NCBI RefSeq assembly: GCF_003063475.1
Contig: NZ_NESP01000001.1
Coordinates: 1,984,001-2,048,000, forward strand
Direction of reading: 5' to 3'
Source of the DNA: Limnohabitans curvus
GTDB lineage: Bacteria > Pseudomonadota > Gammaproteobacteria > Burkholderiales > Burkholderiaceae_C
DNA length: 64,000 nucleotides
A model generated the notes under the pieces. That model was given only the letters and a program-made list of their open reading frames with translations. It made no database searches and was not told the DNA's origin. The first letter of the stretch is position 1, and each line of letters begins with the position of its first letter. Position numbers and translations under genes: made by a program. Shown here piece by piece: positions 39,094 to 42,248 of this stretch.

Positions 39094-40224
39094 TTACGCC
39101 TCGAGCAGGATGCGCAACATGCGGCGCAATGGCTCGGCAGCGCCCCACAAAAGCTGATCACCCACGGTGAACGCGCCCAAGTAGTCGTTGCCCATCGCCA
39201 TTTTGTGCAAACGGCCCACGGGAACTGTCAAAGTGCCGGTTACGGCAGCGGGTGTCAGGTCGCGTTCGCTGATTTCGCGCACGTTGGGCACCACTTTGAC
39301 CCAATCGTTCGCGCTGGCCAAGATGCTTTCGATCTCGTCCATGGGCACGTCTTTTTTCAGCTTGATGGTCAAGCCTTGTGAGTGGCAGCGCATGGCACCA
39401 ATGCGCACGCACAAACCGTCGATGGGGATCGAGCCTGCTGTACGGAATGCTGGGTTGCCCAAGATCTTGTTGCACTCGGCGCCGCCTTTCCACTCTTCCT
39501 TGCTTTGGCCGTTTTCGACAGGTACGTCAATCCAAGGGATCAAGCTGCCAGCCAAGGCGGTGTTGCGGAAGTTTTTGGTGGGGAACTCAGCGCTGCGCAT
39601 GGTGGCCGACACTTTGCGGTCGATGTCCAAGATGGCAGAAGAGGGGTTGGCCAAGTCGTCTTTGACGGCGTCGTGCAAAGCGCCCATTTGGCTCAGCAGC
39701 TCGCGCATGTTTTGTGCGCCCGCGCCCGAAGCAGCCTGGTAAGTCATGGCGCTGACCCACTCGACCATGTTGTGTTGGAACAAGCCGCCCAAGCCCATGA
39801 GCATCAAGCTCACGGTGCAGTTGCCGCCGATCCAGTTTTTGCCGCCTTTGCCCAAGGCCGCGTCAATCACGTTGCGGTTGACTGGGTCGAGCACGATGAT
39901 GGCGTCGTCGGCCATGCGCAAGCTAGAGGCTGCGTCAATCCAGTGGCCGTTCCAGCCCGCAGCGCGCAACTTGGGGTACACCTCTTTGGTGTAGTCGCCG
40001 CCTTGGCAGGTGATGATGATCTCGCAGCGCTTCAGCGCGTCGATGTTGTTGGCGTCTTGGAGCGTGGTTTCGTTTTTGGCTTGCGCGGGGGCTTTGCCAC
40101 CTGCGTTCGACGTGGAGAAGAACACGGGTTCGATCAGATCGAAATCTTTTTCTTGAACCATGCGGTCGATCAGCACCGAGCCGACCATGCCACGCCAACC
40201 GACTAAACCTACTAACTTGCTCAT
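39094..40224 (-). CDS. asd: Aspartate-semialdehyde dehydrogenase
   Basis: 376 residues; begins [19 protein letters not shown] with the cofactor loop GWRGMVGS. Catalytic Cys is in [17 protein letters not shown] near 135, the His in the later [16 protein letters not shown]. Makes aspartate semialdehyde, the branch point to lysine, threonine, methionine and isoleucine. Its 5' region (40225-40440) carries a short ORF rich in Ile/Thr/Lys and terminator-like hairpins, suggesting attenuation control. Lies in the leuB-asd-fimV-truA block common in this group. Confidence 0.97.
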
Positions 40225-40245
40225 TTTTCAACGCCTTTTCAAATG

Positions 40246-40311
40246 TAGAAAACAGTGCCAGACCTGGCTGTTTGCCCGGCTCGTCTGGCCGGGGGGCGCA
40301 CGACGAACCGG
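40246..40311 (-). promoter_or_regulatory. Attenuator-like hairpin set upstream of asd
   Basis: On the minus strand, after the leader ORF stop: stem CCGGTTCGTC/GACGAGCCGG (40311-40302 with 40285-40276; 10 bp with one G-U), then a terminator-like stem AACAGCCA...TGGC(AC)TGTT followed by TTTTC (40272-40247). GCCAGAC (40289-40283) is exactly complementary to GTCTGGC (40263-40257), linking arm regions of the two hairpins in a competing 7-bp pair. This is the layout of a peptide-coupled attenuator. Seen by eye only; folding energies not computed. Confidence 0.6.
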
Positions 40312-40317
40312 AGCTGA

Positions 40318-40419
40318 TTAGCCCTTAATGGTCGTGGTTTTGATGGTGATTGCACGCGCGCGCGCCGCCACCAGTGCGGGGGTAGCGAAGTTCAGAGAGA
40401 ACGAGCGGGCGTGAAACAT
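40318..40419 (-). CDS. Putative leader peptide of asd (Ile/Thr/Lys-rich)
   Basis: A 33-codon ORF beginning MFHARSFSLNF and ending AITIKTTTIKG, then TAA. Seven of the last eleven residues are Ile or Thr and two are Lys, all products of the pathway that asd feeds. It is directly followed by the attenuator-like hairpins. A -10-like TACAAT (40432-40427) lies only seven bases before the ATG and no Shine-Dalgarno is present, so the mRNA may be leaderless, starting at or near the ATG. Homologues were not searched. Not long enough to be picked up by usual gene finders. Confidence 0.6.
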   Translation of the reverse strand: MFHARSFSLNFATPALVAARARAITIKTTTIKG

Positions 40420-40426
40420 AGGGGCG

Positions 40427-40432
40427 ATTGTA
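40427..40432 (-). promoter_or_regulatory. -10 element for the asd leader transcript
   Basis: TACAAT, on the minus strand, ends seven bases upstream of the leader ATG. No good -35 is found at 16-18 bases; the antitoxin promoter lies divergently about 60 bases away. Confidence 0.4.
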
Positions 40433-40506: not shown

Positions 40507-40788
40507 ATGAAATCAGCCACCCTTCCTTCCATTCGCGTTGAGCCCGAGTTTCGTACGGCGGTGGAGTCGCTTTTGCATGAAGGCGAAAGTCTGTCGCAGT
40601 TCGTGGAAAACGCGGTGCGCGACACGTTGATGCAGCGGCAGCATCAGTCAGAGTTTTTGGCGCGTGGTATTCAATCTTTAGAGACGGCACGCCAAAGCAA
40701 CGACTATGTCGAAGCCGATGACATGCTCGCGCAGTTGCGTGACCAATTGGCCAAAGCGCGTTCGCAAGTTCATTCACGCCGTGCATGA
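40507..40788 (+). CDS. Ribbon-helix-helix antitoxin
   Basis: 93 residues. The N-terminal segment SIRVEPEFRTAVESLLHEGE, then SLSQFVENAVRDTLMQRQ is a ribbon-helix-helix DNA-binding unit; the C-terminal half is a helix (EADDMLAQLRDQLAKARSQ) that likely wraps the toxin. The toxin ATG overlaps its stop by four bases (ATGA), typical of such pairs. It would repress its own promoter at 40473-40506 and neutralise the RelE/ParE-like partner. Confidence 0.82.
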   Translation: MKSATLPSIRVEPEFRTAVESLLHEGESLSQFVENAVRDTLMQRQHQSEFLARGIQSLETARQSNDYVEADDMLAQLRDQLAKARSQVHSRRA

Positions 40789-41105
40789 CGTTTAAAGTTC
40801 GACTGACGCGCGAAGCTGAAGCCGATTTGCTTCGGCTTTTTGATTTCTTGCTTCAACGCGAACTGGCTCGCGAAGGTGGCGGTGATTTGACTTTGGCTGA
40901 CAAGGCGATCACAGCCATTCAAAGTGGGTTTGCCACTTTAAAAACATCGCCTTTCACTTGTCGTAAAGCAGAGCAGAGCCCGTTCTTGCGCGAGTTGATC
41001 ATTCCGTTTGGGGCTACCGGCTATGTGGCCTTGTTTGAAATATCAGACAGCCAAACGGTGGTGATTGCGGCTGTTCGGCATCAGCGCGAGAGCGATTACC
41101 ACTGA
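40785..41105 (+). CDS. RelE/ParE-superfamily toxin
   Basis: 106 residues. The ParE-like pattern is visible: VRLTREAEADLLRLFDFLLQ, a mid region (AITAIQSGFATLKTSPFTCR), and the end YVALFEISDSQTVVIAAVRH with RHQRESDY. ParE-type members poison gyrase, RelE-type members cut mRNA; this protein's end (AVRHQRE) is closer to ParE, but I cannot decide. Translationally coupled to the antitoxin and followed by a strong terminator. Inserted in the otherwise conserved leuB-asd neighbourhood. Confidence 0.82.
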   Translation: MTFKVRLTREAEADLLRLFDFLLQRELAREGGGDLTLADKAITAIQSGFATLKTSPFTCRKAEQSPFLRELIIPFGATGYVALFEISDSQTVVIAAVRHQRESDYH

Positions 41106-41162: not shown

Positions 41163-42248
41163 TTAACGCAAAGCCTTCACCACCGCATCACCCATTTGCG
41201 AAGTGCCCACTTTGGTGGTGCCTTCGCTGTAAATGTCGGGGGTCCGCAGGCCTTGGGCCAACACCGCTTTCACGGCGGTCTCGATGCGGTCAGCAGCTGC
41301 CGCTTGGTTCAAGCTGAAGCGCAACATCATGGCGGCGCTGAGGATGGTGGCCAAGGGGTTGGCCACGCCTTTGCCAGCGATGTCGGGGGCACTGCCGTGG
41401 CTGGGTTCGTACAAACCTTGGTTCTTTGAGTTCAAAGAAGCAGAAGGCAGCATGCCAATTGAGCCAGTCAGCATGGATGCTTCGTCGCTCAAGATATCGC
41501 CAAACATGTTGCCAGTCACCACCACGTCAAAGCGCTTGGGCTCTTTGACCAGTTGCATGGCGGCGTTGTCCACGTACATGTGATCCAGCGCAATGTCTGG
41601 GTACTCTTTGCCCACTTCGCTCACCACGTCTTTCCAGAATTGGAAGGTTTCCAGCACGTTGGCTTTGTCCACGCTGGTCACGCGGCCTTCTTTGCCTGCG
41701 GCTTTGCGCTTGCGGGCGGCTTGGAAAGCCACGTGGGCAATGCGTTCGATCTCGGGCTTGCTGTAGCGCATGGTGTCAAACGCTTCTTCCGCACCTGGGA
41801 AGTGACCGTCCGTGGCCACGCGGCGACCGCGGGGTTGGCCAAAGTAAATGTCGCCCGTCAGTTCGCGGATGATCAAAATGTCCAAGCCAGAAATCAGCTC
41901 AGGCTTCAAGCTCGATGCGCCCACCAATTGCTCGTAGCAAATGGCAGGGCGGAAGTTGGCGAACAGACCCATGTTTTTGCGCAGACCCAAAATGGCTTGC
42001 TCGGGGCGCAGAGGGCGGTCGAGGGTGTCGTATTTCCAATCGCCCACCGCGCCGAACAGCACCGCGTCAGAGGCCATGGCCAGCTTCAAAGTGGATTCAG
42101 GCAAGGGGTGGCCATGCGCGTCAAACGCGGCGCCACCGACCAAGGCGGTTTCCATCTCGAACTTCAAGTCCAAGACATTCAAAACTCTGACGGCTTCTGC
42201 GACGATTTCGGTACCGATGCCATCACCGGGGAGGATTGCGATTTTCAT
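41163..42248 (-). CDS. leuB: 3-isopropylmalate dehydrogenase
   Basis: 361 residues. [16 protein letters not shown] at the N terminus, substrate loop [14 protein letters not shown] near 145, and [16 protein letters not shown] [15 protein letters not shown] near 195, then [13 protein letters not shown] with the metal-binding Asp and [14 protein letters not shown]. Oxidatively decarboxylates 3-isopropylmalate in leucine synthesis. Third gene of leuC-leuD-leuB. Confidence 0.97.

Follow-up and report, generated by a model that had tools for sequence, protein, structure and literature searches.

Is asd of Limnohabitans curvus governed by a ribosome that reads threonine, lysine and isoleucine codons ahead of the gene and, if so, at which step of its expression? 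This question is raised by a 64,000-nt stretch of the genome (contig NZ_NESP01000001.1; hereafter the window, i.e. the whole stretch of DNA that was analysed), in which a short open reading frame (ORF) and several inverted repeats precede asd. The gene occupies a branch point and is needed for making lysine, threonine, methionine and isoleucine. The original prediction was a ribosome-stalling attenuator of a kind not known to be described for asd in this group; in agreement with its second part, searches of an open-access library found no description of an asd leader peptide or of the LeuB-tail arrangement presented below. From sequence comparison and RNA folding, we consider it quite likely that the element is a ribosome-sensed attenuator of asd, which would act mainly at translation initiation.

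The asd leader of Limnohabitans curvus

The genes and leader features of the window are the following.

39094..40224, minus strand: asd, aspartate-semialdehyde dehydrogenase, the regulated gene (NCBIfam TIGR01745 asd_gamma, 636 bits, cutoff 403)
40318..40419, minus strand: leader ORF MFHARSFSLNFATPALVAARARAITIKTTTIKG, 33 codons and TAA, its stop 93 nt upstream of the asd start
40321..40350, minus strand: control codons ITIKTTTIKG, from the sequence
40427..40432, minus strand: -10 element TACAAT, 7 nt upstream of the leader ATG
40507-41105, plus strand: ParE-type toxin gene (Pfam PF05016) with a small gene of the YlcI/YnfO family (NF041551) ahead of it
41163..42248, minus strand: leuB, with an ordinary end in this genome (TIGR00169 leuB, 489 bits, cutoff 353)

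The 33-codon ORF announced upstream of asd, ending in AITIKTTTIKG, is present. Among the 3220 stops in the six frames of the window, a single one is preceded by at least eight Thr, Lys or Ile (T/K/I) codons in ten, against a background of 20 stops with at least five in ten. The leader peptide exists as a single copy in the genome. When 26 leaders are aligned, T28 to T30 and G33 are invariant, and K27 and I31 nearly so. The choice of synonyms is also particular: AAA represents 118 of the 200 Lys control codons versus 613 of 3681 Lys codons in asd, and ATT 100 of the 199 Ile control codons versus 465 of 3898. Both codons, preferred here, belong to the less used synonyms in asd. The N-terminal half of the stand-alone leaders (40390-40419, minus strand, in the window) is conserved as well, with MFxARPFxLN in many genomes, and this conservation exceeds what control codons alone would need.

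TACAAT was confirmed seven bases before the ATG, and this spacing leaves no room for a Shine-Dalgarno (SD) sequence. Of 114 stand-alone leaders, 98 have a TANAAT element 6-9 nt upstream of an in-frame start, the distance at which the histogram of positions has its peak. Conservation of codons among relatives had been proposed as a check; the leader ORF and the position of its promoter are both conserved beyond chance. The sequence predicts a transcript starting at the leader ATG or within about 2 nt of it, i.e. a leaderless leader. The promoter geometry expected for such a leader is supported by its conservation among stand-alone leaders; the transcript 5' end stands as a prediction.

On the strand opposite to leuB and asd, the ParE-type gene and the NF041551 gene probably form a toxin-antitoxin pair that was inserted between these two genes. 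The asd protein of the window is 83.6% identical to that of Thauera and 82.4% to that of Azonexus. Within its own family, a small clade of six relatives apart, the identity does not exceed 72.9%. In six comparisons, the leader DNA is 76-84% identical to leaders whose asd is just 66-71% identical. As asd is nearer to Thauera than to most of the family and the leader is more conserved than asd, these identities are most simply read as a replacement of asd in this lineage beneath a leader that was kept.

Control codons at the end of LeuB

The family was sampled with 299 genomes, of which 286 were fetched and 283 classified. Seven of the 13 left out had no asd match at E 1e-50, and six had partial genes or contig ends; three fetched loci (L156, L232 and L407) were not classifiable and lie outside the 283. 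Control codons, defined as at least five T/K/I within the last ten codons, were found upstream of asd in 235 of the 283 genomes, in two forms: a C-terminal tail of LeuB in 121 and a stand-alone Thr/Lys/Ile leader ORF in 114. The remaining 48 genomes have neither, a class with some misfits, namely a short control-codon ORF just below the threshold (L205), a locus cut by a contig end (L383), Thr/Lys codons without a stop (L371) and a relic-like hairpin without a tail (L288).

In the tail-bearing genomes, leuB is located just upstream of asd and the control codons constitute the C-terminus of LeuB, as in the protein ends MGDAVVAAITKTTIKG, MGDAVVAAITTTTKTIKS and MGDAVVAAITGKTITKS, each directly followed by the stop. 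This stop lies 73-148 nt upstream of asd, and tblastn identified the reading frame of the tail as LeuB in 121 of 121 cases. Tails vary in residue order and length between genomes, a variation that favours codon content over a fixed arrest motif as the feature that would be read. Some tails (in L237, L238, L240, L241 and L242) include codons for Met, the fourth aspartate-family amino acid (TTMTKTIKG).

Tailed LeuB proteins are present among the public annotated sequences of Hydrogenophaga laconesensis, Variovorax paradoxus, V. boronicumulans, Roseateles oligotrophus, Paucibacter oligotrophus and Pelomonas. Hydrogenophaga has both forms, H. pseudoflava carrying the stand-alone leader (L086, L096). 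Three protein searches seeded with tail-bearing LeuBs gave the tail in 119 of 120, 119 of 119 and 102 of 119 of the best-listed matches (best 120 each), counts that document occurrence and not frequency.

That the tail belongs to annotated proteins could mean that it works at the protein level, in stability, as a degradation tag or in assembly, with its nearness to asd being incidental. This is very improbable. The tail occurs together with the RNA core described below, and it is found in none of the 60 stand-alone and none of the 42 'neither' genomes in which the LeuB end is visible. Its composition matches that of the stand-alone control codons (T, K and I are 0.34, 0.22 and 0.16 of residues), and many LeuB proteins have an ordinary end without a tail.

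The LeuB-tail form is the new part of this finding. As we read these sequences, LeuB likely serves as the sensor of an attenuator through Thr/Lys/Ile codons added at the 3' end of its gene, which would gate asd translation; the module would switch between such a tail and a leaderless mini-ORF, and in the lineage of the window asd would have been replaced under the retained module. On an asd tree with an outgroup, at least 37 architecture changes were counted, and sampled reconstructions gave averages of 7.8 changes from LeuB tail to stand-alone leader, 1.0 in the reverse direction and 15.6 tail losses, but these counts were not relied on because asd has moved between lineages.

A search with the single sequence detected the 33-codon ORF in 20 of 200 family genomes, and in a first collection the leader was directly upstream of asd at 38 of 101 loci (at one of the loci collected, L025, a contig cut leaves the leader end alone visible). 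The covariance model R1, built on stand-alone leaders, matched 196 of the 299 family genomes and 9 of 300 genomes of an order-wide sample, all nine from the same family. The model R2, built on 61 diverse sequences, matched 242 of 299 and 25 of 300, respectively; 16 of these 25 matches are outside the family and weak, and of the 11 loci examined among them, two adjoin asd. By its sequence distribution, the leader element upstream of asd is a family-wide cis element.

Outside the family, T/K/I-rich ORFs precede asd in 2 of 28 order genomes examined (L416 and L420) and likewise at L262 and L268, L268 and L420 being one genome. L068 and L069, from Rhodocyclales, have T/K-rich ORFs of a different kind. 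The ORFs of these other Burkholderiales families (L262, L268/L420, L416, L068 and L069) differ in sequence, e.g. MSSVRLINSKQQPGKLTPAGRIASIKRTTTIITKTVMKG, and are possibly independent asd leaders.

The RNA core and its predicted output

The elements from the leader stop to the asd start are listed in the order of transcription.

40311..40324, minus strand: P0, a small inverted repeat around the stop codon, GGGCTAATCAGCTC
40302..40311, minus strand: 5' strand of the long (ON) hairpin, CCGGTTCGTC, with covariation
40295..40299, minus strand: anti-SD core GCGCC within the long-hairpin loop, pairing with GGCGU of the asd SD region
40288..40293, minus strand: 5' strand of the short (OFF) hairpin, CCCGGC, with covariation
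40275..40285, minus strand: 3' strand common to the long and short hairpins, GACGAGCCGGG, of which GACGAGCC is nearly invariant
40250..40273, minus strand: hairpin 4 with a T-run (CAG..CTG, TTTT), whose sequence varies between genomes
40222..40239, minus strand: asd ribosome-binding region AAAAGGCGTTGAAAAATG, which contains the start codon of asd

The 10-bp hairpin expected after the ORF is present (40311-40302 with 40285-40276) and conserved beyond chance. In both forms, the core has CYGGTTCGTC as its 5' strand and GACGAGCCRGG as its 3' strand, and the pyrimidine-rich loop between them contains CGCCCT or GCGCC. The 3' strand can pair either with the far strand, giving the long hairpin, or with the near CCYGG, giving the short one. 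The two helices, which have this strand in common, are mutually exclusive. In 155 sequences, the long helix is 96.8% and the short helix 96.2% paired, above 300 of 300 shuffles, and P0 is paired in 90.0% of cells (shuffles max 89.4%). Since RNAalifold found few informative pairs in 38 close sequences, a wider set was collected. In 61 diverse sequences, the long helix is 96.5% paired and shows two-sided changes in 7 cells (3 pairs); the short helix is 90.0% paired, with 11 such cells (4 pairs). The compensatory changes to be tested for among relatives are thus seen in both stems, with covariation scores far above those of slid registers and each matched by none of 500 shuffles, although the shuffles, like the Fisher tests, ignore kinship. 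The leader of the window folds with a z of -2.55 relative to shuffles, of which 4 of 200 were as good. Among 136 classified loci held out from the building of R2, the RNA core was found in 84 of 89 with control codons and in 3 of 47 without. Rfam covariance models at gathering score gave no match in the window and none in 20 loci, and the sole match of a permissive scan was RF03084 (18.8 bits, cutoff 41.2). In L288 (about 1404-1466), the R2 hairpin core stands beside a LeuB without a tail (ending in KALK), which looks like the relic of a lost attenuator.

Two other pairings were dropped. The 7-bp complementary pair (3:4), supposed to compete with both hairpins, exists in the window (40289-40283 with 40263-40257), but its conservation among relatives is not above shuffles (0.823 paired; shuffles mean 0.815, max 0.838). 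The pair between the control codons and segment 2 (1:2, CACGAC:GTCGTG) exceeds shuffles in stand-alone leaders, with 86.7% paired versus a maximum of 86.4%, yet is 57.6% paired in LeuB-tail sequences and was not retained as a universal feature.

The anti-SD sits between the strands of the two hairpins and matches the asd SD. A column-wise test on a MAFFT alignment was negative (0.770 versus a shuffle mean of 0.772), which we believe is due to SD columns being out of register in the alignment, and it was replaced by an alignment-free test. In 152 sequences, the score was 15.47 with the own SD versus 14.99 with the SDs of other genomes (max of 200 permutations 15.29), and in 220 sequences 14.45 versus 13.69 (max of 200 permutations 13.93); for the stand-alone group alone the margin is slim, 15.56 versus a maximum of 15.52. 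Anti-SD windows slid by -14, +14 and +26 nt scored 9.2-10.6. CCCT loops accompany 91 of 108 SDs of the AGGGC type and 6 of 24 of the AGGCG or AGGCGC types. An SD of the AGGGC/AGGCG type is present in 98 of 114 stand-alone and 71 of 121 LeuB-tail genomes (169 of 235 together), versus 5 of 48 with neither form. In the window, the helix between anti-SD and SD has five pairs only, one of them G-U.

Folding was then computed with a moving ribosome edge. When a stop codon occupies its A site, a ribosome extends about 12 nt past the first base of that codon. If the RNA is uncovered from the stop onwards, the long hairpin (mean -27.9 kcal/mol) beats the short one (mean -15.2 kcal/mol) in 152 of 152 sequences; covering 13 nt makes the two even, the long one winning in 78 of 152. 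In the genome of the window, the probability of SD:anti-SD pairing is 0.00 for ribosome edges up to stop+9 and 0.99 at stop+12. Its mean over stand-alone leaders goes from 0.20 at stop+0 to 0.90 at stop+12, with an increase of more than 0.2 in 95 of 112 and a decrease in none, versus 0.18 to 0.25 (stop+0 to stop+13) in a control with shuffled bodies. The change is weak in LeuB-tail genomes, from a mean of 0.56 at stop+0 to 0.75 at stop+12, up in 39 and down in 7 of 108. Given the reach of the ribosome, the flip falls between a stalled and a terminating ribosome. The RNA folding that had been suggested as a check thus predicts, for the leader of the window, a switch between alternative structures. 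This switch is seen when the folded RNA ends just past the asd start codon; no clean switch in SD accessibility is obtained once 35 nt of the asd coding sequence are added (stand-alone 53 up and 41 down of 142; LeuB-tail 4 up and 9 down of 35).

Hairpin 4 had been regarded as terminator-like. Hairpin and T-run are indeed present, but neither the consensus scan nor the hairpin-plus-T search called a terminator in the genome of the window, so that the terminator reading is unsupported for this genome and was kept as a rival. By a crude criterion (a hairpin of -5 kcal/mol or better, then at least 4 T in 6) with mononucleotide shuffles as control, terminator-like hairpins were found in 34 of 114 stand-alone sequences (3 of 114 shuffled) and in 6 of 121 LeuB-tail sequences (1 shuffled). 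Termination is consequently not supported as the general output, the signal being confined to a minority of genomes and not found in that of the window.

Classical transcription attenuation, with hairpin 4 as an intrinsic terminator whose formation is decided by the leader ribosome, would be in line with the T-run, the excess of terminator-like hairpins in stand-alone leaders and the 1:2 pairing. It appears unlikely, as LeuB-tail genomes share the RNA core and so rarely have such a hairpin, and as hairpin 4 does not overlap the conserved switch, to which the 7-bp pair would have been the link. Translational control fits better than transcription termination because the anti-SD/SD switch is common to both architectures. 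Both outputs may coexist, with SD sequestration everywhere and a terminator in some of the stand-alone lineages, where asd has its own promoter. The common anti-SD/SD core combined with the excess of terminator-like hairpins would agree with this, as would the 6-T runs of L154 and the TTTTTT-like ends seen in related rows. It depends, however, on the crude criterion and its mononucleotide control, and we hold it to be a real possibility, though short of an even chance. Termination may be an added output in some lineages. Of the attenuator as first proposed, the Thr/Lys/Ile leader and the conservation of its codons and stems are supported; a general role for termination and the competing 7-bp pair are not.

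Proposed mechanism and known systems

In the translational mechanism that we propose, a ribosome would read Thr/Lys/Ile-rich codons just before a stop located about 70-160 nt upstream of asd. When charged tRNA for these amino acids is scarce, the ribosome would stall upstream of the stop. The RNA past the stop would then be free to fold into the long hairpin, which would lock the anti-SD in its loop and leave the asd SD open (ON). A ribosome reaching the stop codon would cover the base of the long hairpin with its front edge; the short hairpin would form and the anti-SD would pair with the asd SD (OFF). The control codons of the window belong to a 33-codon leader preceded by a leaderless promoter of its own. 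Most commonly in the family, they form the C-terminal tail of LeuB instead, and the ribosome finishing LeuB would be the sensor. We infer the stalling, the amino acids sensed in vivo, and the direction and size of the effect on asd; the codons in both architectures, the covarying alternative hairpins, the SD/anti-SD match and the predicted flip are computed.

Leader peptides are usually seen as separate, disposable mini-genes, whereas here the same codons also end a working enzyme. The 121 tails and 114 leaderless mini-ORFs in 283 genomes would offer a natural series for the origin, fusion and release of an attenuator. If the mechanism is true, asd would be a codon-based control point for Lys, Thr and Ile. 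For annotation, this is a warning that the C-terminal extension of an enzyme can be regulatory and not enzymatic. It will be of interest to look for further operons in which the coding sequence of the upstream protein closes with codons for a product of the downstream pathway.

In Escherichia coli, thrABC is controlled by transcription termination through thrL (Rfam Thr_leader). The asd element resembles this leader by Thr/Ile-rich control codons before an aspartate-family gene and by alternative hairpins, but the gene is asd, Lys codons are added, the output is an anti-SD/SD pairing and there is often no separate leader gene. In erm attenuators, the state with an untranslated leader is not ON; unlike these, the genome of the window is predicted to be ON without leader translation. 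The likeness to translational attenuators of the erm/cat type (cf. PMC11264731) is that a ribosome stalled on a leader frees a downstream SD by an RNA switch. These attenuators respond to antibiotics, whereas the asd element would respond to amino-acid supply via codon content.

A leaderless leader had been thought unusual for an attenuator, but it is not without precedent: according to PMC7298713 and PMC11857589, respectively, the 5' end of the transcript lies at or beside the ATG of the leader ORF in Sinorhizobium meliloti trpL and Corynebacterium glutamicum ilvL, which have no SD. Both are transcription attenuators of trp and ilv genes, whereas the present element would act on asd by an SD switch, with a 5' end that is predicted. 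In SecM-SecA and MifM, the SD of the following gene becomes accessible when a ribosome translates the last part of an upstream protein. A similar arrangement is known from CutF-cutO of Rhodobacter (PMC9973294), where a stem-loop encloses the SD of the following gene and is opened by translation through the end of a complete upstream protein. SecM, MifM and CutF are sensors of export or copper with stalling motifs. LeuB, in contrast, is a metabolic enzyme, and the predicted cue is the scarcity of charged tRNA at the codons added to its tail.
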